Below, one piece after another: positions 7,554-59,894 of a stretch of 64,000 nt of DNA (position 1 is the stretch's first letter; each line of letters starts with the position of its first letter). The DNA is from Chondrosia reniformis (taxonomy: Eukaryota; Porifera; Demospongiae; Chondrillida; Chondrillidae): positions 8,074,501 through 8,138,500 of the forward strand of contig OX359189.1 of the NCBI GenBank assembly GCA_947172415.1. The letters run 5' to 3'. Below the pieces are notes generated by a model. It was given only the letters and a program-made list of their open reading frames with translations. It was not told the origin of the DNA and did no database searches. Both the position numbers and the translations under genes were made by a program.

Positions 7554-8134
7554 TCTAAGCAGCCATTTTCAACAACGTTGCCATAGATACGAAAGGGCAA
7601 TAGCTTCAGGGTATATACGTAGTTGCGCAACGAAAGGTCTGATTTCACATACATACAGCCATTTCCTATCAACATATAACAAGAATAATTCATAGCTGTA
7701 ATACACATGACTACGTATGGCTTTGAGCTTCACACTGCTAAAATCAGTAGTCCTGTGCCTCCGAGGATGTTGGGTCATCACCAGCAACCAAATCTCGGGT
7801 TTTCAGAAGACATGAAACACCCCAAGACCCTTTGAACTGCCAGGTTTCAAAAGGTATGAAAGTATGTAATCTTGGATTCCATGCATATAAAACCTGACAT
7901 TTGATCCTGTGTATTACATGCCATTCAACTCAAATTGACAGAATTATTATCATTATTATTGATGTTACATGAGACATGTGTGTCTTATTATCATTGTACA
8001 TGTTCTCTTGTATTATATGGCATAGAGAACATTGAACAAAAAACAAGTGCATATTATACTGTTGTATTCAATTGTAGCTATATATATTACAGCTTTTAAT
8101 CAACTTTATAGAGTCTAACTGTGCTCTACATAAG
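7554..8134. other. intergenic stretch between DLEC1 start and glycosyltransferase copy 0
   Basis: No gene is seen. From about 7740 the sequence is a diverged relative of 13030-13540 and 19850-20360, so it belongs to the amplified block. It includes a deleted version (about 7790-7905) of the GGTTTCAG-ended element that is fuller in the other two units. The DLEC1 promoter should lie just right of 7553; I see no clear TATA box. Confidence 0.5.
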
Positions 8135-9703
8135 CTATCTTGATGAGCAAACACTTTTAAGCCATTCTGTTGTAGCTGTTTCTGAGGTTGACTCGAAAGT
8201 TACTTTCTCTTCACTTGTTAACATGACTGAATGACTAGAGGCGGATTTCATTTTAGCTCCTGCAATTTGTATACTGAAAGGATGTGAAATAAGCAGAGAT
8301 TTTAAGTCTACTTTAGCACATCTATGACGGCATATCAACTCTTCTCCAACGATAGCTATATATGTTGAGTACTTTTGGGATATACCAACATGGATACTTC
8401 CTTGGTTGGTCCATGACATGTTCATGAGATAGAGAGCCCAATTCAATCGTTTTTGATCATCTATTTCACCAACAGGCCTTTTGCTAAGTTCATCGAATAA
8501 AAATCCTACAGTACATGTATACACAGAAGATGACGTAAAGTGCCCAGAAATCAGGACAACATGCAATTAGTTGAAGTTGCTCATTTTGTGTGCTTGCTAG
8601 TTAGGACATGCATAAGAATATATAAGAAAGGATATAATGCTGGAAATTGTTGGTATATATACAAAGCATATATTTCTTTGATTTCTATACCAAAAATTGT
8701 ATATTAGTTCTTAATATGTATTCAGCAATTTGGAAACAAAACACTAAAATTGAATGCATGCATCCATGCAGAGATTTGAGTTAACACGAAATACCTGTTT
8801 TTGGAGAACTTCTGTAAATGGCTGTTCCTGCACATCCAGTAAATCCCCACTTTTTATAAATGTCTCCTGGAGCATTACCACTACCCAAAACAATGTCATA
8901 ATCAAAGTCTTCAAACCAAAGAAATGGATCTTTTAGAACAATGGCATCTGCATCTATAATCATTACATTCCATCCTTTGAGAAGGATATAATGTACAAGA
9001 AGTGTACGAGCCATCCAAACTGACTCATGAGTGATTCTGTTGGACTTGAAGATGGTACTGCATATACATAAGATATTATTGCAAATTAAATGAAAGATTT
9101 TTACTTACTAAGTACATGCATGCATGTACTCCTTTAGAAAAGAACTTACCCAATCTTTAGATAAATGGAATTGATTCCCTTGCTACGAAAGTATTTGCTG
9201 TGTGGTTCATCAGTGTTTACAAGAATGACTTGATTCAGAAGTTCTGGTACATTTTTGTTTAAATTACAAATCCAATTAACAGCTACTATGTCATAACTGT
9301 CACTGCTTATAATTATGAATGCGTTCTTCTTTTTGGTGATGTCAAATATCCTTTCCAGAGTGTCATCAATGTCTCTGAAAATTGTAGCATTAAGGTAGTC
9401 TCCTCTAGTTGACCCAGGGTTAGGAATTTGTGAAGACCAATTGTAAGATTCCTTTGGCTGAGATTCTGGTACATTAGTAAGTTGAATTCTTTGTATATCT
9501 TCATCATGGTAAAGCTTCATAAAGGTGACATTTAGAATTGGCTTATATCCTCTGTTAATTGTAACAGTTGTAATAAATAGCAAAAACAATGCCAACAATA
9601 ATATAATTCTTCCTAGTGACCGCTTTATTTTGAACATGACAATGATGTTTTTGAAATTAACAATACTGGAGCCAGCTATAGTTACTTTAGCACTGCTGTT
9701 CAT
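8135..9703 (-). CDS. type II membrane glycosyltransferase (nucleotide-diphospho-sugar transferase family), copy 0
   Basis: Three exons, 9150-9703, 8795-9057 and 8135-8505, join in frame with GT-AG borders into 395 codons. The N-terminus has a short basic segment and one hydrophobic helix (LLLALFLLFITTV), so a Golgi type II enzyme is expected. Exon 2 holds the metal/nucleotide-sugar DxD site in IIDADAIVLKDPF, then GFTGCAGTAIYRSSPKTG; exon 3 holds DDQKRLNWAL. This set is typical of the PF03407 nucleotide-diphospho-sugar transferase family. Substrate and acceptor cannot be read from sequence. A start at the inner MFKIKRSL methionine is also possible, since it is the part conserved in the other copies. 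It is the most diverged of three paralogs; no break is seen. Confidence 0.82.
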
Positions 9704-11440
9704 AAAATATTTCTACAGAAGGAAATTTCAATTTATATAACAACTCTTAAAATACTACTTTTATAAAGTCACACATGCCAGTAGGGGACTCATGCATGCA
9801 GAGTATATAATGTGCAGCATGGGGGATGGCCACTCCTGGCCTCGAACAGAGGGACATGCACAGAGGGATCGATGCATTTGATGAGGTGCATGGAGGTGAA
9901 ATAAAAAAAACGTTTGGTTAATTTTATCACTGTGATGAACTAATTAAGTTGCATGTTGTCCTGCATGAGTTTGAGCTTGTCTCCTTCTCATTCACATTGA
10001 CAGTTGAAGATGTCACTGGAGTGTTATGTTGTTCTAAACTGCATAACTTGCAGTGAAATTTAATTAAATATCAAAGTTTGTGCACATCTGCAGTTATTTG
10101 ATATATATCTTGTGATTAGCTTCCTCTATAGAGTGGCCATCCTCTGTATGACCTTACCTCACTATCTCCTGAAACATATACAGAAATGTCTTAAATATAC
10201 TCTATATAGCAGTCGTTCTAGTGGATTGGTGTAAATAATTGATCATGACTGCACCATACAATATATGTCATGCACATTGCATGGATAAGATCATTTCTTG
10301 TAGTATACATAGTTTTACCACAAAAGCACTTCCCTTAGTACTCTTAGCATTGTTGTCACTTATAATGGTGCTCGCTTGGGCTGACTTATATACGTCGACA
10401 GATAGGGCAAAGGGCTTAATTAAGTCGAGTCGGCAGACTATGCGGTCATATTCCTTTTGGATGTCGTAGCGCAGCATCTATGTACCCAGAGTTGGCAGGC
10501 TGCATGAGTCACATAAAATAGCGTCTTCATCTTTCCCATCGTCAATTTCTTGCTGTCAGATCGATGTCGGTTCGCGATCGCGGCATTTATCTCTATACGC
10601 GCGCCTTTGGCATCATTATAGCGTCGAATCTTTTATTTCAGCTAGGGGTCCATGTAACTTCAAATAAGTCGAGAGATTCGAGAGAATCTACTGGAATAGT
10701 ACTAGTGGAGCTGCATGGTCGCTATACAACCGGTCAATGGTCGGGCAACGGTATATAGCTCACCTTTGTCTAGCCGGAGCTCTATTCTTGTTACTGTTTG
10801 ACTCGCCTCTTTTCCAGTTGCCTTTCAATTACTTTCCAGATTGCTAGTGAGGAATAATTCTTTGTCATATATATCCGTATAAACGCTCTAGAATGCAAAA
10901 TTAAACATAAACATGACAAGTCGCGAAATATATACTTCAAGACACTCCTATCTATAGCTGGCTTCCGTTTGAGAGATATGAACCGCGGTAAAATATAAAT
11001 TACACAAAACATATTATGCACATACCTGCAGGAATTTAAGCGTACAGACAGGCGGTGCATGAACAGAATGATAATATTATCAATGATTAAGTACATATAT
11101 ATACTGTATATCACAACATAATTTTTATATATACAGTGCAAGTTACAATATAATAAAGTAATGTAATAATTATATATATACAGGGACATTGTACATGAAA
11201 TAAATTAAAGGGCTCGGCCTTTTATGTCCGGTCCTTGTGTGCAAGTTACTAAATGGTCTCTAACAGAGTATGTTGTTTATGCGGATGCATGCAACCAACC
11301 GTTGGTATTCCTATAGCTCATGATCACAATCAAGGTTTATCAAATCTGCGATGATTATTGGTTGAGACTGGAATTTATTTTGATAATGGCATGCAGATGC
11401 ATCATCTTCAGTGCTATACTAAGGTGGAAGGCCATGTGTT
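9704..11440. other. non-coding upstream region of glycosyltransferase copy 0
   Basis: No gene is seen. 9750-10780 aligns by eye with the upstream regions of the other two copies (15600-16400, 22400-23250). 10480-10760 is unusually CpG-rich for this window (CGCGATCGCG-like) and probably contains the promoter. 10800-11440 is plain AT-rich sequence with TATATA runs. Confidence 0.45.
10480..10765 (-). promoter_or_regulatory. conserved CpG-rich block, candidate glycosyltransferase promoter (copy 0)
   Basis: This block is conserved in all three units about 0.8 kb upstream of the glycosyltransferase start. On the minus strand an ATTGACC/CCATTGACC element sits at its upstream end, followed by a block containing GAATCTCTCGA and GCCAAAGGCGCG. 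The position would require an untranslated first exon. Assignment rests on conservation and CpG content only. Confidence 0.3.
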
Positions 11441-11815
11441 TGCAATCGAGGTGAATTGAAAAGACACCTTGCAGCTCCAATAGGCCTCCTGGTGCTTAAT
11501 CCAATTTTTGGCTTAAGCACCGGCAAGCCTTGTAATATTGGAAATTGCTATCGAGGTAACTTGAAATGACAACCTGCAGTTCCTATAGGTCTCCTGGTGC
11601 TTAATCCACTTTTTGGCTTAAACACCGGCAAGCCTTGTTCTATTGGAAAATGCAATCGAGGTGACTTGAAATGACACCTTTCAGCTCCTATAGGCCTCCT
11701 GGTTCTTAATCCAATTTTTGGCTTAAGCACCGACAAGCCTTGTAGTATTGGAAAATGCAATCAAGGTGACTTGAAATGACACCTTGCAGTTCTTATAGGC
11801 CTCCTGGACACCCTG
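11440..11815. repeat. tandem repeat, about 105-bp unit, roughly 3.5 copies
   Basis: Units begin near 11440, 11541, 11646 and 11751 and share blocks such as CTTAATCCAATTTTTGGCTT, GCACCGGCAAGCCTTG and CAATCGAGGTGACTTGAAAT. Copies differ by scattered substitutions. Reading frames across it only reflect the repeat. It lies where an SC5D copy would be expected if unit 0 were complete. Confidence 0.8.
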
Positions 11816-11834
11816 CAACTTCTATGTACTAATT

Positions 11835-12836
11835 TTATAGCATGTTATACTATTTTGAGATTTAATATTGTTTTAATTACAGAATAGTATTAATACAAGG
11901 TGACAACCATATGATACAAACAAACAAAAAGTAATTGAAATACTGTCATTGGTCCTTAATAAGTGAAATTAAATTTATAATTTTAGATATTTACAAATAA
12001 GGTTGCATAAGTTAACTGAACAATTCCAAGAGTTTAACCAGTTTATGCTTCAGAAGTGTCCACTGCATGGGTTAGTGAAGTTCTTAATCCCCAATCATGT
12101 CTACACCTAGCCACATAGACATTTTCAAAGTGATATAGTAACATGCAATGTGTTTGTTTGCTATTAATATTGGACACATATAAATGTTCATATATATGTA
12201 TACAACACATACCACCTTGATGTCCATTAGTGGTGATTGATATTGTAGGTTCGTTTATAACTCTATTTGGCTCCTCTGATACATCAGCAAACAAGGGAGG
12301 CGGAGCTACTAAGCTACCTTCATCTTCTCCATCATAGGACACAAAGCTGCTCAGGCTGGTGAAACTGTTTTCTAAGGAAGAAAGCCTCGAAACTATAGCT
12401 AAATGTTTATCATCATTTTCAATGGAATTGAAAGCAGACTCCTCATCTGTTGGGAAAGTATCTGATGGAGGAAGAGGAGGAGATGGCAAGTCTTCTACTT
12501 CATCTATAGCATCTTTGGGACCCATTCCCTCAATAGGATCAGCAGCCTGTTGTGGCCTTTCCTGTTCACCATCTTCTTGCAGCTCTGTAACTACCAGATC
12601 AGGTGATGTAATATCCTCTCCATCCTGATTGGACAGAGGCAGTTCAAACATGGCCACTCCCGGTAATGAGGCTATTAAAGGCTCCGAGTCCTCATTCTCT
12701 GTTACAGAAGATGATGATGACTTATCAAACTCCTTACCCTCTGACAGGATGTGGGAGTCCATATATAGCAATTACAGCATCCTACAGAAGTGTAATACAA
12801 CCCCTTCAAATGAGGAGAAACACTTTGAATACAATT
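11835..12836 (-). pseudogene. RhoGEF C-terminal exon fragment, unit 1 (exon lost, frameshifted)
   Basis: This matches the 3' end of the RhoGEF gene (25367-26863). The acidic exon ([14 protein letters not shown] to the donor after GHQG) is readable from 12771 to about 12215, but a 4-base ATAT insertion just before its ATG shifts the frame entering from the acceptor and gives a stop about 16 codons in. The proline-rich last exon is gone: sequence jumps at about 12070 from the hairpin remnant directly to the terminal HAVDTSEA codons and the 3' flank. No upstream RhoGEF exons are present beyond about 12836. Confidence 0.75.
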
Positions 12837-13084
12837 ATTACAATTTTAAAGGTGTCTGCAGTCATGTTGTTGTGATGCAATCTCTTTACCCCACTTATAT
12901 ATTGGTATATACTATTTGATTGCTGTTGTGATGCATTATTCGGTATTCTCCTTACCTGTCGCTGCGCATCTTGAGTAGCTAACAATAAATAATTCATAGC
13001 TTCACTACACGTGTCCTAACTGTCTTTTACAAGTGCATCACTTCCAATCAGCAGTCCTGTCTTGTTTGTTGACTTCACAGAACC

Positions 13085-13278
13085 AAATCTCAGGTTTCAG
13101 AAGGCATGAAACCCCCTTCGAACTGCCAGGTTTCAAAATGTATGAAAGTATGTATAATCTTGGAAAGGGGAGCTGTTAAAAATTTGAAACCCATACATAC
13201 TTGATCATGAGCACCTTTTGAAACCTGGCTGTTCAAGATACAAATTAGTTTCATACCATTGAAACCTGAAACCGGAAA
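13085..13278. mobile_element. short inverted-repeat element (MITE-like), unit 1
   Basis: The ends read CAGGTTTCAG-AAGG-ATGAAAC and, inverted, CAGGTTTCAATGGTATGAAAC, about 21 bp with few mismatches, around roughly 150 bp of non-coding sequence. The same element is at the matching place in unit 2 (19909-20097) and is internally deleted in unit 0, so it predates the amplification. Confidence 0.55.
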
Positions 13279-13537
13279 ATTGATCCTGTGTATATATGTG
13301 CCAAACAACTCAAATTGACAGAATTATTATCATTATTATTATTGATATTGCATGTGAAATGTATATATACGTATGTCTTATTATTATCATTGTATATATA
13401 TATATTGACTCTCATAATAATAATATATATAGCCATATAATTACAAGGCATATAGAGGGTATTGAACATATACTGTTACATTCAATTGTATATTAATCAT
13501 GATCAACTTTATAGACAGTCTGTGCTCTATACATAGT

Positions 13538-15541
13538 CTATGTTGATGAGCAAACACTTTTAAGCCATTCTGTTGTAGCTGTTTCTGAGGCTGACTCGAA
13601 AGTTACTTTCTCTTCACTTGTTAACATGACTGAATGACTAGAGGCGGATTTCATTTTAGCTCCTGCAATTTGTATACTGAAAGGATGTGAAATAAGCAGA
13701 GATTTTAAGTGTACTTTAGCACATCGATGACGGCATATCAACTCTTCTCCAACGATAGCTATATATGTTGAGTACTTTTGGGATATACCAACATGGATAC
13801 TTCCTTGGTTGGTCCATGACATGTTCATGAGATAGAGAGCCCTATTCAATCGTTTTTGATCATCTATTTCACCAACAGGCCTTTTGCTAATTTCATCGAA
13901 TAAAAAACCTACAGTACATGTATACATAGGGATGACATATAAAATGCCGGAAGTACAGAATAACATGCAATTAGTAGAAGTTAATTGCTCAACAACCTAG
14001 ATTTTGTGTGCTTTCCATATAAAGTAGTTAGGACATATATAAGACAGGATATATAATGCTAGAATTGGTATTTTTATTTCTTTGATTTCTAAAAAGCAAA
14101 TTTATATGTATATTGTTAGTTCTTAGGCATACATACTGCATGTAGTCTCATGCATGCAGTATATATTCTGAATCAGCAATTTTGAAGCAAAAATTGAATG
14201 CATCCATACAGAGATTTGAATTAATTATCATGAAATACCTGTTTTTGGAGAACTTCTATAAATGGCTGTTCCTGCACACCCAGTAAATCCCCACTTTTCA
14301 TAAATGTCTCCTGGAGCATTACCACTACCCAAAACAATGTCATAATCAAAGTCTTCAAACCAATGAAATGGATCTTTTAAAACAATGGCATCTGCATCTA
14401 TAATCATTATATTCCATCCTTTGAGAAGGATATAATGTGTGAGAAGTGTACGAGCCATCCAAACTGACTCACGAGTGATTCTGTTGGACTTTAAGATGGT
14501 ACTGCATATAAAAATTTAAATTATTGCAAAATGAAAACGGTTACTTACTAAGTACACATGTGTGCATGTATGAAAAATCATACATGCCTGCTAATATATT
14601 CTGTATATAAAAAAGCCTATAGGATTCACAGAAGATCAACATAAAGAAAAAGACAAAGACTCCCAGGATCATGATCACTGATGAAGGGTGGAATTCCCAG
14701 AAATGGCTGTCTGGCCCAGTGGAGCAGAAGAAGAAAAGGAGACACCTGTATCTTCATCCAAAGCTCTCTTCAGGTTTAGTTCCCAATAGGCTTTTTAATT
14801 AGGCATTATAATTAGGCATAGCATGTAGGAAAATGGCGTACTATAGATTATTCATGCATGAAAAATCTACAACATTTTCCTATATAGGTACATGCATGCT
14901 ATATAGTCTATATATATATTCTGTAAAAAAGCCTATAAGGAACTAAACCTGCATGGGGACTATAGGAGAGAGCTTTGTACTCCTGTAATCCATGCACTCC
15001 TTCACAAAAGAACTTACCCAATCTTTAGATAAATGGAATTGATTCCCTTGCTACGAAAGTATTTGCTGTGTGGTTCATCAGTGTTTACAAGAATGACTTG
15101 ATTCAGAAGTTCTGGTACATTTTTGTTTAAATTACAAATCCAATTAACAGCTACTATGTCATAACTGTCACTGCTTATAATTATGAATACGTTCTTCTTT
15201 TTGGTGATGTCAAATATCCTTTCCAGAGTGTCATCAATGTCTCTGAAAATTGTAGCATTAAGGTAGTCTCCTCTAGTTGACCCAGGGTTAGGAATTTGTG
15301 AAGACCAATTGTAAGATTCCTTTGGCTGAGATTCTGGTACATTAGTAAGTTGAATTCTTTGTATATCTTCATCATGGTAAAGCTTCATAAAGGTGACATT
15401 TAGAATTGGCTTATATCCTCTGTTAATTGTAATAAAATAAATAAAAAATAGCAAAAACAAAGCCAACAATGTAACTCTTTGAATTCCTAGTGACAGCTTC
15501 ATTTTGAACATGGCAATGATGGTTTTGAAATTATATAACAA
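13538..15541 (-). CDS. type II membrane glycosyltransferase, copy 1
   Basis: Exons 15018-15541, 14239-14501 and 13538-13908 join in frame (385 codons); exon lengths match copies 0 and 2 apart from the N-terminus. A hydrophobic signal-anchor (LLALFLLFFIYFI) follows the conserved MFKMKLSLG start, then a luminal stem with N-glycosylation sequons (NVT, NWS, NAT). IIDADAIVLKDPF in exon 2 supplies the DxD site and DDQKRLNRAL follows in exon 3. The family is PF03407 as for copy 0. The intron between exons 1 and 2 has gained about 400 bp of dispersed repeat (14610-14960) absent from copy 0. The reading frame is intact, so it is probably functional if transcribed. Confidence 0.82.
14611..14962. mobile_element. 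interspersed fold-back repeat in the glycosyltransferase copy 1 intron
   Basis: Starts with GATTCACAGAAGATCAA, continues through GGTGGAATTCCCAGAAA and CTTCATCCAAAGCTCTCTTC, then CAGGTTTAGTTCCCAATAGG (14772 on). The last part is repeated inverted at about 14935-14960 (AGGAACTAAACCTG), making a fold-back. Family members are at 288-345, 21428-21760, 27030-27260, 37440-37690, 56530-56740 and 57610-57765. No coding capacity. Confidence 0.65.
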
Positions 15542-16545
15542 TACTGGAGCCAGCTATTATAGTTACTTTCACACTGCTGTTCATAAATATTTCTACAAAT
15601 ATATAGGAAATTTACCAATTTAACAACTCCTAAATAAAATGCTACTATTAAAGTGACATATACCAGATGGGGACTCGTGCAGAGTATATAATGTGGGGGA
15701 TCAAGCAGAGGGACATGCACAGAGGGATGCGTTTGCAATTGATGAGGTGGAGGGTGATGGCTGTGAAATAAACAAGTAGCTATTTCGAGTTTATGTATTG
15801 ACGTATAAATTAAGTGTTACAAGAGTTGCGTATGAACTCGTATTATACATTATATTATTATATAATATATATCTGTAACATGAAGCCATACCTAAATTAC
15901 GTTATGAAAACAATTAAGGGGCTGCCATAGGCACCCCTAAAAAGTGGTTACCACCATACCATACCACCATACTACTACATAGTCTGGCAGTCATTCAAGT
16001 GCAGGATTGGTTTAAATCATTGCATTGTTGTCACTTATACTTATAGTAGCTTGTTTCTTTTGGGCTGACAGATGGGGCAACACCATGCATCGGGTCTGCA
16101 GACTATGATATACGATCATATTCCTTTTTGGATGTCTTAGCGCAGCGTCTGTGTACCAGACAGATCAATGTCGGGTCGCGATCGCGCTCCTACGCGCCTT
16201 TGGCATCATTAGCGTCGAGTTTTTATAATTTCAGGGGATCTTACTGCATGTATCTTCGAGAGATTCGAGAGAATCTACTGGGAAATCCGAATCGAGAACA
16301 GTGGAGCTGATGTGCATGATCGCTAACGGCGGTCATTGGTAGGGCACAGAATGAACTCGCCTTTACTCCTGAGCTCTATTCTTGGTAGTGCATGCGTACT
16401 GTTTGACTCACTTCTTTGCCAGCTGCCTTTTCACAATCCTAATATTTCATTCCAGAATAATGGTAATTCTTAAGAAAAAAAATAGAAGGTTGTCTGGGCT
16501 AAGGGTGGTGCTTGGGCACCCCAGGCACCACCCTAGATCCGCCAC
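15542..16545. other. non-coding region upstream of glycosyltransferase copy 1
   Basis: No gene is seen. 15600-16400 is shared with the other units. 15900-16010 holds degenerate TE-like sequence, and 16490-16545 holds a GC-rich imperfect palindrome (GGGTGGTGCTTGGG / CAGGCACCACCC) resembling a decayed element end. Confidence 0.4.
16125..16345 (-). promoter_or_regulatory. candidate glycosyltransferase promoter, copy 1
   Basis: On the minus strand a CCAAT box (complement of ATTGG at 16335-16339) is followed about 110 bp downstream by TTATAAAA (complement of 16220-16228), then a CpG-dense stretch with GCGATCGCG. The same order occurs at 22970-23195. It sits about 0.7 kb from the start codon, so an untranslated exon would be needed. 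Inference only. Confidence 0.33.
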
Positions 16546-16547
16546 TG

Positions 16548-17300
16548 GTATGGAGCAATAGCATCTGGTTTAAATAACAAAGGTCATTATATATAATTGT
16601 TTACAAGTTTTAAGCTTATATAAAACATTAAAGATAGTGGGCTTTGTCCCATGGCTTCAACAAAGGTTATATATGATGCATGCCATTGTCTTACGCTGGG
16701 CGCGTTGCATAATTAGCGGGCACTCAAACATCAAAATATTAAAATATATGGTTTTTAACTTGATTGTATACTGTAGGACAGCCAAGGCATCCAGCTTAAC
16801 GGTATTAACACTTTGGATCGTTCAGAAAATTGTGGAATAGTATATATTTGTCAGTATGGAACAATAGTATCTGGTTTAAATAACAAAGGTCATTATATAT
16901 AATTTACAAGTTTTAAGCTTATATAAAACATTAAAGACTTTGTCCCATGGCTTCAACAAAGGTTATATAGGATGCATGCCATTGTCTTACGCTGGGCGCG
17001 TTGCATAATTAGCGGGCACTCAAACATCAAAATATTAAAATATATGGTTTTTAACTTGATTGTATACTGAAGGACAGCCAAGGCATCCAGCTTAACGGTA
17101 TTAACACTTTGGATCGTTCAGAATATTGTGGAATAGTATATATTTGTCAGTATGGAACAATAGTATCTGGTTTAAATAACAAAGGTCATTATATATAATT
17201 TACAAGTTTTAAGCTTATATAAAACATTAAAGACAGTGGGCTTTGTCCCGTGGCTTCAACAAAGGTTATATATGATGCATACCATTGTCTTTGACACAAT
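16548..17300. repeat. tandem repeat, about 300-bp unit, about 2.5 copies
   Basis: Units start near 16548, 16853 and 17151 with GTATGGARCAATAG and contain TAACAAAGGTCATTATATAT, GCGCGTTGCATAATTAGCGG and GGCATCCAGCTTAACGGT. Unit 2 of the large block has only one partial copy (about 23461-23750), so copy number differs between the paralogous segments. Non-coding. Confidence 0.8.
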
Positions 17301-17394
17301 TTTTGCCACCCTACTTTTTGACAGATTGTGCCACCTCTGCTTAATTAATAAGTACTACAAATTTGAGAATACAGTGTGCATAATAATTATCTGG

Positions 17395-17640
17395 TGTTCA
17401 TTATAATTACTTGTTGACTGAAGAAGACCCCCAGGTCAAAACGTTTGACCAAGAACCCAAGAACCAAACTGCGTTTCTAAACGCTCATAAAGCCGAAGGA
17501 TGTACCATCCCAAAGATAAGTTTGATGCAGTTAGAAGGAATTCTTATTCTATTATGTTTATTACTTGTTATGTCACTATCTACATTAAAACAAGAAAATG
17601 CAGTAAACACAAACAGTTGGTAGTAAACAGTAGTGTCACT
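17395..17640 (+). mobile_element. Penelope-type end remnant (GAAGAAGACC...CAAAACGTTT), unit 1
   Basis: CTGAAGAAGACCCCCAGGTC followed by AAAACGTTTGACC is a degenerate form of the hammerhead-like core seen at 4592-4866; the downstream text (AGTTAGAAGGAATTCTTATT) recurs at 33460-33490. The copy in unit 2 is at 23870-24080. Short ORFs across it are chance. Confidence 0.45.
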
Positions 17641-17689
17641 GGGTCTGCTGGAAATATGTTAAGTGTCTTGTGCGGGCGGTGGTTATACT

Positions 17690-18511
17690 TCACTCCATAT
17701 GGCTGTGATTGGCAATATTTCTTGAAGAAAATCCATTAGATGAGTGAATATTTCCATTTGGACAAGTCATACTTTTAACTAAATCAAGGGGTGACTTGCC
17801 TTCAAATGCTGAGGGATGACGAAATGATCCTCCAATTCTATCCCATAATGTAAAGAACTGCCCATAGTTGTAATTGTAAAACAGGTGATGATCAGTATGG
17901 TGGGCCGAGCCATTGATAAATGGCCGCAGCAGGGCTGGCACACGGTAATCACCGTCATGAATTGATACAGTCCAGACATTCACAAATACAAACAGTAAAA
18001 GATATAGCACTTTGTGAAGTGGAAAAATAAATGGATATATGTGGTATGGAGTACTCTGCAAGAAGCCATCCAAGGGATGAAAGGCGTGACTGACGAATGG
18101 CGTGGGAACCTTCCACTTATGATGAGGTTTGTGTATACGTTTGTAGAGCATTGGATGATGCAGACAGCGGTGGATCCAGTATATGAGGCAATCGGTAAAC
18201 ATGAGAAACGTAACAGCACTGACAACCAATCCCAAGTAGCCCGCCCAGCTGTCCACTCCGCTGTACAGCTTCGAGTAGCCACGCACTTCTAACAGAAATG
18301 CAATACTTGTTAAAAGAGACATTCCTGGAATGGACTTCAGAGTGTACTGGATTTCCAGTCGAACTTGATTCTTCAGATATTGAGGGTGAAGCATATGTCG
18401 CTTGTCGAAAATGAACATGTAGCTAAGAGAGGCGGTAATTAGATAGAGCAATGCTCCTCCCAGACTGGTAATTAAGAAGATACTAAGAATCTGTCGCCGA
18501 ATGTCATCTTC
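17690..18511 (-). pseudogene. SC5D: lathosterol oxidase (sterol C5-desaturase), 5'-truncated copy
   Basis: From the stop at 17690 to 18511 this is a near-identical copy of the full SC5D at 24143-25093, with all three histidine boxes (HRCLHH, HKPHH, HHTDHH). Homology stops abruptly at 18511, inside the codons for PEDDIRRQ, so about the first 45 residues are missing. Immediately upstream is the proline-rich exon of a RhoGEF tail copy in another frame (reads DQKMTFGDRF). The first usable methionine (18451) would delete the N-terminal part and half of the first membrane helix. Probably a duplication by-product. The open frame is otherwise clean, which implies a recent event, purifying selection or an assembly fold. 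Confidence 0.82.
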
Positions 18512-18517
18512 TGGTCA

Positions 18518-18668
18518 GTGGGAGGAGGATCAGTAGTAGAAGGGTCAGCGGTAGAAGGGTCAGTGGGAGGAGGGTCAGTGAGAGGAGGATCAGTGGGAGA
18601 AGGGTCAGTGGGAGGAGGGTCAGTGGGAGGAGGGTCAGTGGGAGGAGGATCAATGGGAGGAGGTGGTG
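18518..18668. repeat. 15-bp coding minisatellite (Pro-Pro-Thr-Asp-Pro), unit 2
   Basis: Units of TCAGTGGGAGGAGGG encode PPPTD repeats on the minus strand. The third copy (25700-25880) has more and different units, including PPPID. The array is probably the recombination substrate of the SC5D junction. Confidence 0.8.
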
Positions 18669-18807
18669 GAACATCATTAAGATCACTGGAGGATGATGTC
18701 TGAGATAAGTATTTGTAAAAGGTATCCTTGTTTCCTGCAAGACACAAGGTTAAGAGTAACAACAGAGACCTGGACCTGGTACACAAGGCAGAGTATCTTT
18801 TAGAAAA

Positions 18808-18952
18808 TATAGTAACATTATTGGGGATTGAGAACTTCACTAGCCAAAAAATCGAGGGACAGATGTCGATTGTCACCAAATTTACCAAACGATTTGGCCC
18901 AATCTCTCCCTAGATTTCCTAGCTTGGCTAGTGAAATTCTCAATCCCCAATC
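18808..18952. mobile_element. hairpin element inside the RhoGEF tail intron, unit 2
   Basis: TTGGGGATTGAGAACTTCAC at the left and the inverse of AATTCTCAATCCCCAA at the right form about 28-bp inverted ends around about 85 bp. It is also at 26040-26167 in the functional gene. In unit 1 only one end remains (about 12075-12100), and that copy lacks the adjacent exon. Confidence 0.6.
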
Positions 18953-19908
18953 ATGTCTACACCTAGCCTTATAACAATATGCAATGTGTTTTGTGGACAC
19001 ATACGTATATATATATATATACAACACATACCACCTTGATGTCCATTAGTGGTGATTGATATTGTAGGTTCGTTTGTAACTCTATTTGGCTCCTCTGATA
19101 CATCAGCAAACAAGGGAGGTGGAGCTACTAAGCTACCTTCATCTTCTCCATCATAGGACACAAAGCTGCTCAGGCTGGTGAAACTGTTTTCTAAAGAAAG
19201 AAGCCTCGAAACTATAGCTAAATGTTTATCATCATTTTCAATGGAATTGAAAGCAGACTCCTCATCTGTTGGGAAAGTATCTGATGGAGGAAGAGGAGGA
19301 GATGGCAAGTCTTCTACTTCATCTATAGCATCTTTGGGACCCATTCCCTCAATAGGATCAGCAGCCTGTTGTGGCCTTTCCTGTTCACCATCTTCTTGCA
19401 GCTCTGTAACTACCAGATCAGGTGATGAAATATCCTCTCCATCCTGATTGGACAGAGGCAGTTCAAACATGGCCACTCCCGGTAATGAGGCTATTAAAGG
19501 CTCCGAGTCCTCATTCTCTGTTACAGAAGATGATGATGACTTATCAAACTCCTTACCCTCTGACAGGATGTGGGAGTCCATATATAGCAATTACAGCATC
19601 CTACAGAAGTGTAATACAACCCCTTCAAAATGAGGAGAAACACTTTGAATACAATTATTACAATTTTAAAGGTGTCTGCAGTCATGTTGTTGTGATGCAA
19701 TCTCTTTACCCCACTTATATATTGGTATATATTATTTGATTGCTGTTGTGATGCATTATTCGGTATTCTCTTTACCTGTCGCTGCGCATCTTGAGTAGCT
19801 AACAATAAATAATTCATAGCTTCACTACACGTGTCCTAACTGTCTTTTACAAGTGCATCACTTCCAATCAGCAGTCCTGTCTTGTTCGTTGACTTCACAG
19901 AACCAAAT

Positions 19909-20097
19909 CTCAGGTTTCAGAAGGCATGAAACCCCCTTCGAACTGCCAGGTTTCAAAATGTATGAAAGTATGTATAATCTTGGAAAGGGGAGCTGTTAAA
20001 AATTTGAAACCCATACATACTTGATCATGAGCACCTTTTGAAACCTGGCTGTCCAAGATACAAATTAGTTTCATACCATTGAAACCTGAAACCGGAA
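19909..20097. mobile_element. short inverted-repeat element (MITE-like), unit 2
   Basis: Same GGTTTCAG-ended element as at 13085-13278, almost identical in sequence and position relative to the glycosyltransferase. Confidence 0.55.
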
Positions 20098-20357
20098 AAT
20101 TGATCCTGTGTATATATGTGCCAAACAACTCAAATTGACAGAATTATTATCATTATTATTATTGATATTGCATGTGAAATGTATATATACGTATGTCTTA
20201 TTATTATCATTGTATATATATATATTGACTCTTATAATAATAATATATATAGCCATTTAATTACAAGGCATATAGAGGGTATTGAACATATACTGTTACA
20301 TTCAATTGTATATTAATCATGATCAACTTTATAGACAGTCTGTGCTCTATACATAGT

Positions 20358-22348
20358 CTATGTTGATGAGCAAACACTTTTAAGCCATTCTGTTGTAGCT
20401 GTTTCTGAGGCTGACTCAAAAGTTACTTTCTCTTCATTTGTTAACAAGACTGAATGATTTGAGGCAGATTCTATTTTAGCTCCTGCAATTTGTATACTGA
20501 AAGGATGTGAAATAAGCAGAGATTTTAAGTGTACTTTAGCACATCGATGACGGCATATCAACTCTTCTCCAACGATAGCTATATATGTTGAGTACTTTTG
20601 GGATATACCAACATGGATACTTCCTTGGTTGGTCCATGACATGTTCATGAGATAGAGAGCCCTATTCAATCGTCTTTGATCTGATATTTCACCAACAGGC
20701 CTTTTGCTAAGTTCATCGAATAAAAATCCTACAGTACATGTATACATAGGGATGACATATAAAATGCCCGGAAGTACAGGATAACATGCAATTAGTAGAA
20801 GTTAATTGCTCAACAACCTAGATTTTGTGTGCTTTCCATATACAGTAGTTAGGACATATATAAGACAGGATATATAATGCTGGAATTGGTATATTTATTT
20901 CATTGATTTCTAAAAAGCAAATTTATATGTATATTGTTAGTTCTTAGGCATACATACTGCATGTAGTCTCATGCATGCAGTATATATTCTGAATCAGCAA
21001 TTTTGAAGCAAAAATTGAATGCATCCATACAGAGATTTGAATTAATTATCATGAAATACCTGTTTTTGGAGAACTTCTATAAATGGCTGTTCCTGCACAC
21101 CCAGTAAATCCCCACTTTTTATAAATGTCTCCTGGAGCATTACCACTACCCAAAACAATGTCATAATCAAAGTCTTCAAACCAATGAAATGGATCTTTTA
21201 AAACAATGGCATCTGCATCTATAATCATTATATTCCATCCTTTGAGAAGGATATAATGTGTGAGAAGTGTACGAGCCATCCAAACTGCCTGACGGGTGAT
21301 TTCATTGGACTTTAAGATTGAACTGCATATACATAAGATAAAAATTTAAATTTTTACTTACTAAGTACACATGTGTGCATGTATGAAAAATCATACATGC
21401 ATGCTAATATATTCTGTAAAAAAGCCGATAGGATTCACAGAAGATCAACATAAAGAAAAAGACAAAGACTCCCAGGATCATGATCACTGATGAAGGGTGG
21501 AATTCCCAGAAATGGCTGTCTGGCCCAGTGGAGCAGAAGAAGAAAAGGAGACACCTGTATCTTCATCCAAAGCTCTCTTCAGGTTTAGTTCCCAATAGGC
21601 TTTTTAATTAGGCATTATAATTAGGCATAGCATGTAGGAAAATGGCGTACTATAGATTATTAATGCATGAAAAATCTACATTTTCCTATATACATGCATG
21701 CTATATAGTCTATATATATATATTCTGTAAAAAAGCCTATAAGGAACTAAACCTGCATGGGGACTATAGGAGAGAGCTTTGTACTCCTGTAATCCATGCA
21801 CTCCTTCACAAAAGAACTTACCCAATCTTTAGATAAATGGAATTGATTCCCTTGCTACGAAAGTACTTGCTGTGTGGTTCATCAGTGTTTACAAGAATAA
21901 CTTGATTCAGAAGTTCTGGTACATTTTTGTTTAAATTACAAATCCAATTAACAGCTACTATGTCATAACTGTCACTGCTTATAATTATGAATGTGTTCCT
22001 CTTTTTGGTGATGTCAAATATCCTTTCCAGAGTGTCATCAATGTCTCTGAAAATTGTAGCATTAAGGTAGTCTCCTCTAGTTGACCCAGGGTTAGGAATT
22101 TGTGAAGACCAATTGTAAGATTCCTTTGGCTGAGATTCTGGTACATTAGTAAGTTGAATTCTTTGTAATATATCTTCATCATGGTAAAGCTTCAAATAGG
22201 TGACATTTAGAATTGGCTTATATCCTCTGTTAATTGTAATAAAATAAATAAAAAATAGCAAAAACAAAGCCAACAATGTAACTCTTCGAATTCCTAGTGA
22301 CAGCTTCATTTTGAACATGGCAATGATGGTTTTGAAATTATATAACAA
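20358..22348 (-). CDS. type II membrane glycosyltransferase, copy 2
   Basis: Exons 21822-22348, 21060-21322 and 20358-20728 join in frame (386 codons). Signal-anchor, luminal stem, DADAIVLKDP site and GCAGTAIYRSSPKTG are as in copy 1. Exon 3 reads SDQRRLNRAL where copies 0 and 1 have DDQKRLN, and differs at several more positions near the C-terminus (ESASNHSVLLTNEE). One extra residue lies in the stem (DEDILQRIQ). Exon 2 is nearly identical to copy 1, so divergence is uneven along the gene. No break is seen. Function is assigned by family (PF03407) only. Confidence 0.82.
21420..21762. mobile_element. interspersed fold-back repeat in the glycosyltransferase copy 2 intron
   Basis: Same insertion as at 14611-14962, in the same intron, so it was present before these two units separated. 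Copy 0 lacks it. Confidence 0.65.
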
Positions 22349-24142
22349 TACTGGAGCCAGCTATTATAGTTACTTTCACACTGCTGTTCATAAATATTTC
22401 TACAAATATATAGGAAATTTACCAATTTAACAACTCCTAAATAAAATGCTACTATTAAAGTGACATATACCAGATGGGGACTCGTGCAGAGTATATAATG
22501 TGGGGGATCAAGCAGAGGGACATGCACAGAGGGATGCGTTTGCAATTGATGAGGTGGAGGGTGATGGCTGTGAAATAAACAAGTATATAGCTATTTCGAA
22601 TTCGAGTTTATGTATTGACGTATAAATTAAGTGTTACAAGAGTTGCGTATGAACTCGTATTATACATTATATTTCCGTAACATGAAGCCATTCCTAAATC
22701 ACGTTATGAAAACAATATAGGCCTAAAAAGTGGTTACCACCATACCATACTACCATACTACTGCATAGTCTGGCAGTCATTCAAGTGCAGGACCGGTTTA
22801 AATCATTTCTTGTTTCATACTCATATACCATCTTAAAATTCCCTTAGCACTCTTATAGCATTGTTGTCACTTAGTCTATACTTATAGTAGACTACTCGCT
22901 TGTTTCTTTTGGGCTGACAGATAGGGCAACACCGTGCATCGGGTCTGCAGACTATGGTATACGATCATATTCCTTTTGGGATGTCTTAGCGCAGCGTCTG
23001 TGTACCAGACAGATCAATGTCAGGTCGCGATCGCGCTCCTACGCGCCTTTGGCATCATTAGCGTCGAGTTTTTATAATTTCAGGGGATCTTACTGCATGT
23101 ATCTTCGAGAGATTCGAGAGAATCTACTGGGAAATCCGAATCGAGAACAGTGGAGCTGATGTGCATGATCGCTAACGGCGGTCATTGGTCGGGTATATAG
23201 AATGAACTCGCCTTTACTCCTGAGCTCTATTCTTGGTAGTGCATGCGTACTGTTTGACTCACTTCTTTGCTGCCTTTTTACAATCCTAATAGTTCATTCC
23301 AGATTGCTTGAGGAATAATTCTTCGTCATATAATGCATACTTATAAACGCGCTATAAGAATGCAAAAACTACATTCCAAGCATGCATGATACTCCTAGCT
23401 GGCTTCGGTTTGTCAGATATATATGGACCGGTATAAATTCCTTATACATCTCAGCACTAAAATTGCATAATTAGCGCGGGCACTCAAACATCAAAATATT
23501 AAAATATATGGTTTTTAACTTGATTGTATACTGTAGGACAGCCAAAGCATCCAGCTTAACGGTAATAACACTTTGGATCGTTCAGAAAATTGTGGAATAG
23601 TATATATTTGTCAGTATGGAACAATAGTATCTGGTTTAAATAACAAAGGTCATTATATATAACTGTTTACAAGTTTTAAGCTTATATAAAACATTAAAGA
23701 CAGTGGGCTTTGTCCCGTGGCTTCAACAAAGGTTATATATGATGTATGCCATTGTCTTTGACACAATTTTTGCCACCCTACTTTTTGACAGATTGTCCCA
23801 CCTCTGCTTAATTAATAAGTACTACAAATTTGAGAATACAGTGTGCATAATATCTGGTGTTCATTACTTGTTGACTGAAGAAGACCCCCAGGTCAAAACG
23901 TTTGACCAAGAACCCAAGAACCAAACTGCGTTTCTAAAAGCTCATAAAGCCGAAGGATGTACCATCCCAAAGATAAGTTTGATGCAGTTAGAAGGAATTC
24001 TTATTCTATTATGTTTATTACTTGTTATGTCACTATCTACATTAAAACAAGAAAATGCAGTAAACACAAACAGTTGGTAGTAAACAGTAGTGTCACTGGG
24101 TCTGCTGGAAATATGTTAAGTGTCTTGTGCGGGCGTTATACT
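22349..24142. other. non-coding region between glycosyltransferase copy 2 and SC5D
   Basis: No gene is seen. 22970-23195 repeats the candidate promoter block. 23461-23750 is a single unit of the 300-bp repeat. 23870-24080 is the Penelope-type remnant. 24085-24142 is the SC5D 3' flank, shared with unit 1. Confidence 0.45.
22970..23195 (-). promoter_or_regulatory. candidate glycosyltransferase promoter, copy 2
   Basis: Near-identical to 16125-16345: inverted CCAAT (ATTGG at about 23183), TTATAAAA on the minus strand at about 23070, and a CpG-rich core with GCGATCGCG. Confidence 0.33.
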
Positions 24143-25093
24143 TCACTCCATATGGCTGTGATTGGCAATATTTCTTGAAGAAAATCCATTAGATGAGTGA
24201 ATATTTCCATTTGGACAAGTCATACTTTTAACTAAATCAAGGGGTGACTTGCCTTCAAATGCTGAGGGATGACGAAATGATCCTCCAATTCTATCCCATA
24301 ATGTAAAGAACTGCCCATAGTTGTAATTGTAAAACAGGTGATGATCAGTATGGTGGGCCGAGCCATTGATAAATGGCCGCAGCAGGGCTGGCACACGGTA
24401 ATCACCGTCATGAATTGATACAGTCCAGACATTCACAAATACAAACAGTAAAAGATATAGCACTTTGTGAAGTGGAAAAATAAATGGATATATGTGGTAT
24501 GGAGTACTCTGCATGAAGCCATCCAAGGGATGAAAGGCATGACTGGCGAATGGCGTGGGAACCTTCCACTTATGATGAGGTTTGTGTATACGTTTGTAGA
24601 GCATTGGATGATGCAGACAGCGGTGGATCCAGTATATGAGGCAATCGGTAAACATGAGAAACGTAACAGCACTGACAACCAATCCCAAGTAGCCCGCCCA
24701 GCTGTCCACTCCGTTGTACAGCTTCGAGTAGCCACGCACCTCTAACAGAAATGCAATACTTGTTAAAAGAGACATTCCTGGAATGGACTTTAGAGTGTAC
24801 TGGATTTCCAGTCGAACTTGATTCTTCAGATATTGAGGGTGAAGCATATGTCGCTTGTCGAAAATGAACATGTAGCCAAGAGAGGCGGTAACTAGATAGA
24901 GCAATGCTCCTCCCAGACTGGTAATTAAGAAGATACTAAGAATCTGTCGCCGAATGTCATCTTCGGGTAACCAAGAGGGATAAACGTACGGAGTAAGGAC
25001 GTTCTTGTCGCACAAGTCTAGTATTAGGTCCATGGAAATATTAATGACGGCGTGAGCTTCGGATTCTTTGGCGTTCGTGATTTCCTTGTCCAA
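24143..25093 (-). CDS. SC5D: lathosterol oxidase / sterol C5-desaturase, intronless
   Basis: 316 codons in one exon. SC5D introduces the C5-6 double bond of sterols in the ER membrane (lathosterol to 7-dehydrocholesterol), using a di-iron site. Residues about 20-50 (LTPYVYPSWLPEDDIRRQ) match the family N-terminus. The motifs PHQ-like LHPQYLKNQV, FLLEVRGYSKLY, YWIHRCLHHP (His box 1), HKPHHKWKVPTPFASHAFHP (box 2) and NGSAHHTDHHLFYNYNYGQ (box 3) are all present, with several hydrophobic segments between. The length is close to the vertebrate enzyme (about 299), with a roughly 20-residue N-terminal extension; a start at the inner MDLILDLC, which aligns with the human start, is equally possible. 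The lack of introns is unusual beside its intron-rich neighbours. The truncated copy at 17690 derives from this gene or shares its parent. Confidence 0.93.
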   Translation of the reverse strand: MDKEITNAKESEAHAVINISMDLILDLCDKNVLTPYVYPSWLPEDDIRRQILSIFLITSLGGALLYLVTASLGYMFIFDKRHMLHPQYLKNQVRLEIQYTLKSIPGMSLLTSIAFLLEVRGYSKLYNGVDSWAGYLGLVVSAVTFLMFTDCLIYWIHRCLHHPMLYKRIHKPHHKWKVPTPFASHAFHPLDGFMQSTPYHIYPFIFPLHKVLYLLLFVFVNVWTVSIHDGDYRVPALLRPFINGSAHHTDHHLFYNYNYGQFFTLWDRIGGSFRHPSAFEGKSPLDLVKSMTCPNGNIHSSNGFSSRNIANHSHME

Positions 25094-25366
25094 AAAGCAT
25101 GACAGATCGTACGATCATGTGATGTGATCGTGATTGACCTCATGCATGCATGCTAATATTATATATATCGCGATCGATATCGGTGGCACGCTCTGTAAGT
25201 ATACGTGTACGCGTGCCAGATCGAGGTGTCATCAGCACCGGAGGGATAAAAGGGTACATAGATCTGACTATATGTATACGTATGTTACAACAGAAGTGCA
25301 GCTCATATACAGAATGAGTATTAGCAGTCAAAATCAGGATTCCAACCACAAACTGTGCATGCATAT
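25094..25366. other. SC5D upstream region
   Basis: 273 bp unique to this unit, with CpG-containing palindromes (CGCGATCGATATCG at about 25169) and TGCATGCATGC at 25142. It probably holds the SC5D promoter; no clear TATA or CCAAT box. From 25367 the sequence is shared with 11838 onward (RhoGEF 3' flank). Confidence 0.4.
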
Positions 25367-25568
25367 AAATGTTATACTATGTTGAGATTTTATATTGTTT
25401 AATTACAGAATAGTATTAATACAAGGTGACAACCATATGATACAAACAAACAAAAAGTAATTGAAATACTGTCATTGGTCCTTAATAAGTGAAATTAAAT
25501 TTATAATTTTAGATATTTACAAATAAGGTTGCATAAGTTAACTGAACAATTCCAAGAGTTTAACCAGT

Positions 25569-28125
25569 TTATGCTTCAGAAGTGTCTACTGCATGACCCA
25601 GTAGAAGTGTGGATCCGCCCATTGTTAAAATGGATGTTTCCTGTGTATCAGGCACTGGAGGTGTGTCCAGTACAGTGGGTGTGTCCAGTACAGTGGACAG
25701 GTCAAGTAGAGGAGGAGGATCAATGGGAGGAGGGTCAGTTGGAGGAGCGTCAGTTGAAGGAGGATCAATGGGAGGAGGGTCAGTGGGAGGAGGATCAGAG
25801 GTAGAAGGGTCAGTGGGAGGAGGGTCAGTGGGAGGAGGATCAGTGGGAGGAGGATCAATGGGAGGAGGATCAATGGGAGGAGGTGGTGGAACATCATTAA
25901 GATCACTGGAGGATGATGTCTGAGATAAGTATTTGTAAAAGGTATCCTTGTTTCCTGCAAGACACAAGGTTAAGAGTAACAACAGAGACCTGGACCTGGT
26001 ACACAAGGCAGAGTATCTTTTAGAAAATATAGTAACATTATTGGGGATTGAGAACTTCACTAGCCAAAAAATCGAGGGACAGATGTCGATTGTCACCAAA
26101 TTTACCAAACGATTCGGCCCAATCTGTGGCCTCAATTTCTTGGCTAGCGAAATTCTCAATCCCCAATCATGTCTACACCTAGCCATATAACAATATGCAA
26201 TGTGTTTTGTGGACACATACGTACATATACAACACATACCACCTTGATGTCCATTAGCGGTGATTGATATTGTAGGTTCGTTTGTAACTCTATTTGGCTC
26301 CTCTGGTACATCAGCAAACAAGGGAGGTGGAGCTACTAAGCTACCTTCATCTTCTCCGTCATAGGACACAAAGCTGTTCAGGCTGGTGAAACTGTTTTCT
26401 AAGGAAAGAAGCCTCGAAACTATAGCTAAATGTTTATCATCATTTTCAATGGAATTGAAAGCAGGCTCCTCATCTGTTGGGAAAGTATCTGATGGAGGAA
26501 GAGGAGGAGATGGCAAGTCTTCTACTTCATCTATAGCATCTTTAGGGTCCATTCCCTCAATAGGATCAGCAGCCTGTTGTGGCCTTTCCTGTTCACCATC
26601 TTCTTGCAGCTCTGTAACTACCAGATCAGATGATGAAATATCCTCTCCATCCTGATTGGACAGAGGCAGTTCAAACATGGCCACTCCCGGTAGTGAGGCT
26701 ATTAAAGGCTCCGAGTCCTCATTCTCTGTTACAGAAGATGATGATGACTTATCAAATTCCTTCCCCTCTGACAGAATGTGGGAGTCCATAGCAATTACAG
26801 CATCCTACAGAAGTACAGTATAATACAACCCCTTCAAAATGAGGAGAAACACTTTGAATACAATTCCAGAAAAACAATACTGACTATATAAATTTTAAAA
26901 ACAAATACACTGTACATGCTACAATGTACCTCTAATGTTTCTTCTTCTGATATAGGAGATTCTATAGTGAAGCATTTACAAATATACAAATTAAATAAGT
27001 AGTAAAGTAACATTTTATAATGTAGAATGCATGGAGAATTCACCAAAGATCAAGAAAGTGACAAAGATTACTGATGAAGGGTGGAATTCCCAGAAACAGC
27101 TGTCTGGCCCAGTGGAGAAGAGGAGAAGGAAGAGAAGAAAAGAAGACAGGAGAAAAGACTCCTGTATACGTATTTATCCAAAGCTCTCTCCAGGTTTAGG
27201 CTTTTTCACAGAATAGGCATAGCATGTAGGAAAATGGTGTATTACATTTTTCATGTAGCATGTCAGCAGCTGTCATTGGGAAGGAGTAAGACCCACCAAT
27301 TTGCAGTTCTTCAGTGAGTGTGTGGGTTGATCCCCTTCGTTCAAATTCAGTATTACCACCAGCTAGCATTCTCTAAAGATACACAAGATAGCAATAATGC
27401 ACAGTTAAATATTTGAAAAAAAGAGGAAATGGATACGTATCTTCTACCAAAAATAATATTTGTCATTCCTACTACATCTGTTAATTCTCTTTATGTATAC
27501 ATAAGAGTGATGAAGTATCGCAACAAAATGAAACAGTTTATAAGATTTAGATTCTAAACTCACAAGAAGAGATGTTAACTGTCGCTGAAGCATGATTGCA
27601 TGATCTGCAATAACTGCCTGTGAGCATAGGAAAGTGTATATATATTATGTTAGTGTAGGAAGGTATACATTTTAAGAACTTACGCTGGCAATGTTCGCAT
27701 AAGTATATACAAACATACATGAACAGGGAAAGTATATTACACTTGCCACATACGTACGTATGTAAGATAAGACAACTCCGATATAAAGAGCAAAGTGAGA
27801 TGAAACACTCTTCTGCTTACTTGAGCTGCAGTAATGTTGGGATCGGGAACTAAGAGGGCATTTGCAGCTGAGACCATTATACAAGCTATATACATAAGTG
27901 TAACAGGCAAAAATGAATAACCACAAATGTAAAAGGATGGATGGATGGATGGAAGGATGGATGGATGGATGAATGGATGGATGGATGGATGGATGGATGG
28001 AAGGATGGATGGATGGATGGATGGGATGGATGGGATGGATGGAGGGATGGATGGATGGATGGATGAGGGATGGAGGGATGGAGGGATGGAGGGATGGAGG
28101 GATGGATGGATGGATGGATGGATGG

Positions 28126-28161
<36 letters not shown>

Positions 28162-51441: not shown

Positions 51442-51725
51442 CTTTCAAGTCAAAATTATACACAAACACACTTATTATACTTAGTAAACTTGTCCATAAT
51501 TTATGCTCTTTCTACATATTCCTATATGTATGTAACTATTCCTTCTCTCATTATTTGCATGTCTGTGAATTTGACAGCCATTTAATATTAATATAAGGTT
51601 GATCAAACAAAGTTAAGAGTGTATATATACGTATATACGTATTTGAATTCTTATCAGAATACATACAGCATATCAGTGTTATACATAATAATATAAATTA
51701 AAAAGTTAATACTCATTAGAAGAGT
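51442..51725. other. convergent 3' flanks of SAXO and SLC37
   Basis: 284 bp of AT-rich sequence between the two stop codons; contains a TATACGTATATACGTAT palindromic run at about 51622. It is duplicated at 59895-60182. Confidence 0.5.
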
Positions 51726-59387: not shown

Positions 59388-59894
59388 GCAAAGTCTTGTT
59401 TTGCAGATGACTTTAAACACTATGTGCCAGTTCCTCCTTCCAAGAGTCTCAAACCACCTCAGAAGCCAGTAGCTTCAGATAAACCATTCGAAGGTACTAC
59501 TATAAAATCAGTTGACTTTAAATCATGGCCTCTTGATGCTCGTGCAAAGCCAATCCGTCACGAGAAGGACTATCAACCGCCAACACAAACCTTTAATGGA
59601 ACATCAACCATGCAGCTCTCTTTCAAGGGCGCTTATGGTCCCCCAGCCAACTCAGCCAAACCAGAACAACAAGCTTCCCAAGGATCTGGCAAATTGGATG
59701 GAAAATCTGTCTATCGTGATAGCTTTACACCAAAGCATAATGATCCCTGCCCAACTACTTTCTTCAAGCCAGACAATATGGACAGCACGTCACGCTATCT
59801 GTACTCGCATCAAGACAAGACAGGACACAAGTTTTTTGCTCCATTAAGTGAGGTTACTAAAGCCGCTTTACAGACAGCAACTGGACAAGCTTAA
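59388..59894 (+). pseudogene. SAXO2: SAXO 3' fragment (last about 168 codons), duplicated
   Basis: Nearly identical to 50935-51441. Differences include VPVPPSKS for GPVSPSKS and one I-to-V near the C-terminus. The N-terminal Cys-rich exon and about five Mn modules are absent; upstream sequence is unrelated from the point ATTTCAG. It is open throughout, starting with the residues that follow EKFQ in the parent. It could only be expressed from a foreign upstream exon or an internal Met (59424). Confidence 0.85.

Follow-up and report, generated by a model that had tools for sequence, protein, structure and literature searches.

A 64,000-nucleotide stretch of the genome of the kidney sponge Chondrosia reniformis (contig C1, positions 8,074,501-8,138,500; hereafter the window) carries on its minus strand, at 7.7-26.9 kb, three intact glycosyltransferase (GT) genes, GT0, GT1 and GT2, two SC5D-like genes and three 3' ends of a RhoGEF gene, arranged in the direction of transcription as RhoGEF, SC5D2, GT2, tail1, SC5D1, GT1, tail0 and GT0 (Table 1). 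The cluster was probably built by stepwise tandem duplication, in which an old GT duplication would have been followed by the arrival of a stray RhoGEF tail, unequal recombination, small deletions and gene conversion. This reading starts from what is observed, namely the copies and their junctions, their relative divergences, the open GT frames, a truncated SC5D1 and mosaic site patterns. The genome used for our searches has 117,379,552 bases in 15 contigs, and match counts in it are lower bounds for repeats and large families; the accessible part of the assembly report gives 117.37 Mb in 14 chromosomes plus the mitochondrial genome (PMC12181767).

Table 1. Coordinates in the window of the genes, gene fragments and repeats of the cluster
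Feature	Position	Strand	Description
GT0	8135-9637	-	Exons 9637-9150, 9057-8795, 8505-8135; 373 aa; open frame, GT-AG introns; older paralogue
GT1	13538-15511	-	Exons 15511-15018, 14501-14239, 13908-13538; 375 aa; open frame, GT-AG introns
GT2	20358-22318	-	Exons 22318-21822, 21322-21060, 20728-20358; 376 aa; open frame, GT-AG introns
GT0 upstream region	10290-11108	-	Old homology to the GT2-SC5D2 spacer (22802-23535); about 70% blastn identity to 10900
SC5D1	17690-18514	-	5'-truncated, 274 open codons; PF04116, 95.4 bits
SC5D2	24143-25033	-	One open frame, complete by frame; start codon presumed; PF04116, 96.3 bits
tail0	11842-12836	-	Stray RhoGEF 3' end, copied from 25369-26865; 546-bp internal deletion (equivalent to 25596-26141)
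tail1	18513-19656	-	Second RhoGEF 3' end copy; resembles tail0 on the left and the native tail on the right
Native RhoGEF, last two exons	25569-26804	-	26804 to about 26237; 25954-25569; from splice sites and frame
RhoGEF body	29433-35645	-	C1 35376-35645; DH-like 31850-32107; PH_16 29658-29927 and 29433-29645
105-bp satellite array	11441-11807		3.5 copies; left of tail0, 34 bp from its end at 11842
Dispersed satellite monomer	12845-12967		At the tail/GT junction; array period about 130-156 bp; copied at about 19665-19787
296-bp unit	16548-17291		Repeated 2.5 times in tandem in unit 1; a smaller number in unit 2 (about 23463-23758)

Repeat structure and relative ages

Comparison of the window with itself gave the matches listed here, all of them direct repeats with E-values far beyond chance, and bears out an earlier note on this DNA, which had recognised the three GT genes, two SC5D copies and three RhoGEF 3' ends in a single orientation. 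Positions 12070-16456 match 18926-23303 (94.2% identity), 17001-18515 match 23463-24968 (97.6%) and 18513-19656 match 25733-26865 (94.2%), all with E=0, as have the matches of 7890-9128 to 13269-14570 and 20089-21383 (80-81%) and of 9120-9908 to 14988-15775 and 21792-22582 (86-87%); the match of 11842-12069 to 25369-25595 reaches 98.2% (E=9e-109). Between the units containing GT1 and GT2 (units 1 and 2), for which the note had given an offset of about 6.8 kb, the GT genes and the tail junction are 6,804-6,821 bp apart; the offset is 6,453-6,467 bp for SC5D1 and SC5D2, and 7,208-7,220 bp for tail1 and its native counterpart. The edges it placed at 11838/25367 and 12836/19655/26863 are correct to within 4 bases.

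Neighbouring pieces of the cluster differ strongly in divergence. All counts were made with a single aligner, paired figures for GT0 referring to lenient and stricter gap scoring, respectively, and exclude GT0 intron 1, the unalignable 9909-10289, the deleted stretches, the 15-bp repeats of tail1 and, for GT0/GT1 only, 10290-10900. The non-coding DNA of GT0 differs from that of GT2 at 122/1277 or 137/1286 sites (9.6-10.7%), with 97 or 91 gap openings (71-76/kb), and from that of GT1 at 75/796 or 86/800, with 57 or 51 gap openings; overall, GT0 stands 9-11% and 64-76 gap openings/kb apart from the other two. For tail0 and the native tail the figures are 30/939 (3.2%) and 9 gap openings (9.6/kb), about one third of the GT0/GT2 value in substitutions (Fisher 1.4e-9 or 5.8e-12) and one seventh in gaps (Fisher 5.8e-14 or 8.1e-13), in a comparison that is partly exon, with the native side under selection; the 3' flank alone gives 3/227. 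The remaining pairs are closer, with 19/1548 (1.2%) and 7 gap openings for non-coding GT1/GT2, 11/1208 (0.9%) and 4 for SC5D1/SC5D2, 19/968 and 5 for tail0/tail1, and 23/976 and 5 for tail1/native. Because of this contrast in substitutions and gaps, GT0 and tail0 appear to be pieces of different age that were copied in separate events, barring a later homogenisation of the tails.

This age difference bears on the origin proposed in the earlier note, in which one GT-SC5D-RhoGEF-tail block was duplicated twice by unequal crossing-over and SC5D was then deleted from unit 0 (GT0 and tail0). A real duplication in tandem is supported, and so are an unequal exchange, a history of more than a single step and later deletions; unit 0 as a single duplicated block is not, and since its two parts differ in age, a loss of SC5D from it is not required. 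Order and orientation fit such a block, the tail/GT junction is common to the units, and homology upstream of GT0 extends about 1.5 kb toward SC5D, ending in a weak collinear extension (10938-11108 with 23385-23535) whose score is reached in none of 500 shuffles. We nonetheless consider this origin unlikely, as GT0 and tail0 are about threefold apart in substitutions and sevenfold in gap density, and no remnant of SC5D was detected left of tail0, either in the self-comparison or in an aimed test of 11109-11440. The place that SC5D would have held is occupied by the 105-bp satellite array and by a stretch, 10901-11440, with no other genome match among the best 40 of 1417 candidates scored, a weak sign that it is single-copy.

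Tails, junctions and the proposed order of events

Homology of the three tails ends at 12836, 19656 and 26865, within an intron, with 61 bp between this limit and the penultimate RhoGEF exon downstream, so that no exon is cut there. The earlier note had placed a deletion of half a RhoGEF exon in units 1 and 2; the last exon is indeed cut, but in tail0 and tail1 and by two separate deletions, one of 546 bp in tail0 and one of 764 bp in unit 1, which takes the start of SC5D1 as well. tail0 and tail1 have in common a frameshifting 4-nt insertion and a 5-nt intron deletion relative to the native tail, and given the common frameshift and the missing gene body they are probably dead as RhoGEF genes. 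Among 15 places found by a search of the genome with the tail, three are full-length and the other 12 match only the first 62-75 query bases. Both stray tails continue into a dispersed satellite monomer and then into GT 3' flank, with likeness to the GT0 3' flank from 12980 on. As the versions at 12836 and 19656 are about 99% alike, this tail/satellite/GT junction was made once and then copied. The monomer has 137 genome matches, all except the two local copies lying within query bases 5-132. The 105-bp unit on the other side of tail0 occurs on many contigs, with at least 134 genome matches when the best 40 of 1417 candidates were scored, and in the same set every match apart from that of the query to itself falls within the array.

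tail1 looks like the hybrid copy expected of unequal recombination between flanking homologous tracts. At 33 informative sites among tail0, tail1 and the native tail (three further sites, pairing tail0 with the native tail, were set aside), 14 of the left 19 join tail0 to tail1 and five do not, whereas 13 of the right 14 join tail1 to the native tail, with one against. The maximum chi-square is 14.4 (2/5000 permutations) and the break lies between 12231 and 12188 in tail0 coordinates, part of the signal falling in a low-complexity intron.

We infer the order of events, the insertion of tail0 itself and recombination as the mechanism as follows. An old tandem duplication of a GT gene would have produced GT0 and a second gene, GTx, beside SC5D and RhoGEF. 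About 1.5 kb of the RhoGEF 3' end, reaching from intron to 3' flank, would later have been copied to a place between GT0 and GTx, where satellite DNA borders it on either side (the 105-bp array on the left and one monomer of the other satellite on the right). More recently, the stray tail and its native counterpart may have undergone unequal homologous recombination, which doubled the GTx-SC5D segment between them, yielding tail0-GT1-SC5D1-tail1-GT2-SC5D2-RhoGEF with tail1 as the hybrid. Small deletions would then have removed 764 bp from unit 1, including the SC5D1 start, and 546 bp from tail0, and gene conversion would have swapped exon patches among the three GT genes. This order would account for the features seen without a loss of SC5D from unit 0.

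The age difference between GT0 and tail0 and the common junction could also be obtained by ordinary tandem duplications alone, had three GTx-SC5D-tail copies once lain beside GT0 and the first GTx and SC5D been deleted, leaving tail0. This needs one extra duplication and a large deletion, and no remnant of a second GT or of SC5D was detected between 11109 and 11842; we regard it as quite improbable. That the cluster is an assembly artefact, with two haplotypes placed end to end, we judge very improbable indeed. The animal is diploid, and the part of the assembly report available gives a primary k-mer completeness of only 69.43% (PMC12181767); the divergence of about 1% between units 1 and 2 could be allelic. 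Yet the same part of that report describes purge_dups and manual curation, and HiFi reads with a mean length of about 12.9 kb (0.80 million reads, 10.31 Gb), longer than the 6.8-kb unit (PMC12181767). The window contains no N and the units have private deletions, and nothing points to split haplotypes.

Probable exchange among the glycosyltransferase exons

Relationships among the three GT genes alternate along their exons in clusters, the pattern by which gene conversion is recognised. In 1128 aligned coding columns, those with gaps being passed over, 57 informative sites join either GT0 and GT1 (26) or GT1 and GT2 (31), five more, joining GT0 and GT2, being kept outside the runs test. These 57 fall into 11 runs, compared with a shuffle mean of 29; none of 20000 shuffles gave as few, and 12/20000 did after removal of the membrane-anchor block. 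Past the anchor, exon 1 of GT0 and GT1 differs at 1/402 positions and 0/82 synonymous sites, against 75/796 in non-coding DNA (p 0.0007), while the anchor just before it has a synonymous divergence (dS) of 0.22, from only 3.8/19.3 sites. Over the coding region, GT0/GT1 synonymous divergence (6/218) is likewise below the non-coding value (75/796, p 0.0006). The exons thus look like a patchwork created by gene conversion, and for exon 1 the direction GT1 to GT0 would be the simpler one. Conversion mediated by cDNA was considered and dropped, as the near-identity starts inside exon 1, past the anchor, and not at an exon border. The primary assembly yielded no fourth close copy that could have donated the GT2 patches, and more distant relatives, their residues compared by eye, gave no clear polarity for them. 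In an initial MAFFT alignment the GT0 introns seemed nearly unalignable (about 50%; exons 86-100%); pairwise realignment showed them to be about 90% alike where aligned, with many indels, so that the conservation of exons over introns is real but much weaker than first suggested.

Several points weigh against the proposed history. If the tails had undergone gene conversion, tail0 could appear younger than its true age, which would rescue the model of the earlier note; moreover, the tail0 insertion showed neither a target-site duplication nor an empty site. The region upstream of GT0 is collinear with the GT2-SC5D2 spacer up to 11108/23535, and hence SC5D may have been part of the old duplication and have been lost from unit 0 afterwards. 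The right part of the hybrid test is low-complexity intron beside the tail0 deletion, so that its signal may be partly local damage and the test is not decisive by itself. GT0 divergence hinges on gap scoring; for 10290-10900 it is 30% by blastn and 10-11% by global alignment. As to conversion, the longest-run test alone is weaker (306/10000), and GT0/GT2 synonymous and non-coding divergence do not differ (14/219 vs 55/648, p 0.39). The last result, together with the three open frames and the GT1/GT2 exons, which differ more and not less than non-coding DNA, would suit an explanation of exon likeness by selection on the protein alone, independent of the duplication history; the low GT0/GT1 synonymous divergence and the alternation along the exons make it improbable.

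The genes, their surroundings and their meaning

The GT0 and GT2 translations, both scanned against Pfam, resemble glycosyltransferases of the Nucleotid_trans family (PF03407), with 41.6 and 42.9 bits, respectively, above the gathering cut-off of 22. The GT translation shows a hydrophobic stretch at its N-terminus and a DxD-like motif, DADAIV, which we take to be significant for such an enzyme, and judged by sequence all three genes look like working enzymes. A genome-wide search with GT exon 1 found 17 places, of which only the three in this cluster are close copies; 11 of the 17, this cluster counted, sit in tandem groups of 2-4. Distant relatives near base 5,103 of contig C6 and near 8,799,621 of contig C5 have identical scores. 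GT0 intron 1 measures 92 bp and lacks a dispersed repeat of about 150-260 bp that is inserted in intron 1 of GT1 and GT2 (14621-14860 and 21430-21669), which are about 500 bp long; the repeat recurs at four or more further places in the window (27046-27257, 37445-37684, 56535-56737 and 57620-57767).

Both SC5D copies exceed the FA_hydroxylase (PF04116) cut-off of 31 bits, and the label presumes a likeness to human SC5D. SC5D2 found no relative in the PDB at E 0.001. SC5D1 lacks codons 1-22 and the DNA upstream, starting at codon 23, and an in-frame TGA lies directly at its junction with 15-bp repeats of the RhoGEF last exon; the copies differ in nine codons, five of them non-synonymously. The genome search gave six matches, SC5D2, SC5D1 and four weak ones. 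Of the sole SC5D-like gene found in the genome, the locus thus carries a full-length copy and one that has lost its start, and when sponge sterol genes are annotated, expression data would be needed before SC5D1 is counted as a second working enzyme.

The native RhoGEF, which we take to be of the Lbc type, has C1 (45.2 bits, cut-off 26.5) and PH_16 (38.9 bits, cut-off 22.8) domains above threshold, while its second PH_16 exon (16.5 bits) and the DH-like exon (15.6 bits, cut-off 27.6) score below; a nearby open reading frame (ORF; 29882-30250) resembles ARHGEF11 chains (E 9e-5). The last RhoGEF intron contains a 43-nt inverted repeat, 88% complementary (26035-26172), one arm of which overlaps a 60-75-bp stretch found at 12 other genome places, and a 527-bp GGAT tetranucleotide array (27935-28461) lies inside the gene, flanked by the exon at 26804 and the PH exon at 29433. 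The DLEC1 gene named in the earlier note could not be confirmed, two ORFs having no Pfam match and one of them no PDB match. A second tandem duplication in the window (50927-56209 and 59380-64000, pieces 84-97% alike) starts within a SAXO1/2-like ORF (50032-51438, PF05217), of which the copy has only the last 170 codons, again a 3'-end fragment. This duplication and the clustered GT relatives (11/17 places) suggest that tandem duplications of this sort are not rare in this genome and that the event was of an ordinary kind.

Multigene families evolving by birth and death with gene conversion are a known kind, and the tandem GT clusters (11/17 places) and mosaic exons resemble them without basic difference; the diversity of the products of duplication has been reviewed (PMC3449122). 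A literature search found no paper on Chondrosia with glycosyltransferase, nor on our set of exon/intron conversion phrases. Tandem segmental duplications by non-allelic homologous recombination that leave incomplete gene copies at their edges, such as NOTCH2NL (PMC11956922), are another close parallel. They share with this cluster a partial gene copy at the block edge, a common junction, a hybrid copy and later decay; in the sponge, the partial copy apparently arose earlier and then acted as recombination partner, and the unit is small, at 6.8 kb. It is a rather doubtful further idea that the satellite-flanked stray tail acts as a landing pad for repeated unequal recombination, with GT-SC5D copy number still varying between individuals and conversion reshuffling GT exons into new enzyme variants; GT1 and GT2 are about twice as divergent in their exons as in non-coding DNA (30/1035 vs 18/1197, p 0.03). 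The kind of event is already known, and this case is clean, with a history unusually readable step by step. As a compact and well-kept record, it would illustrate how the copying of one part of a gene can come before a gene duplication and make it possible, with patches of exons exchanged afterwards.

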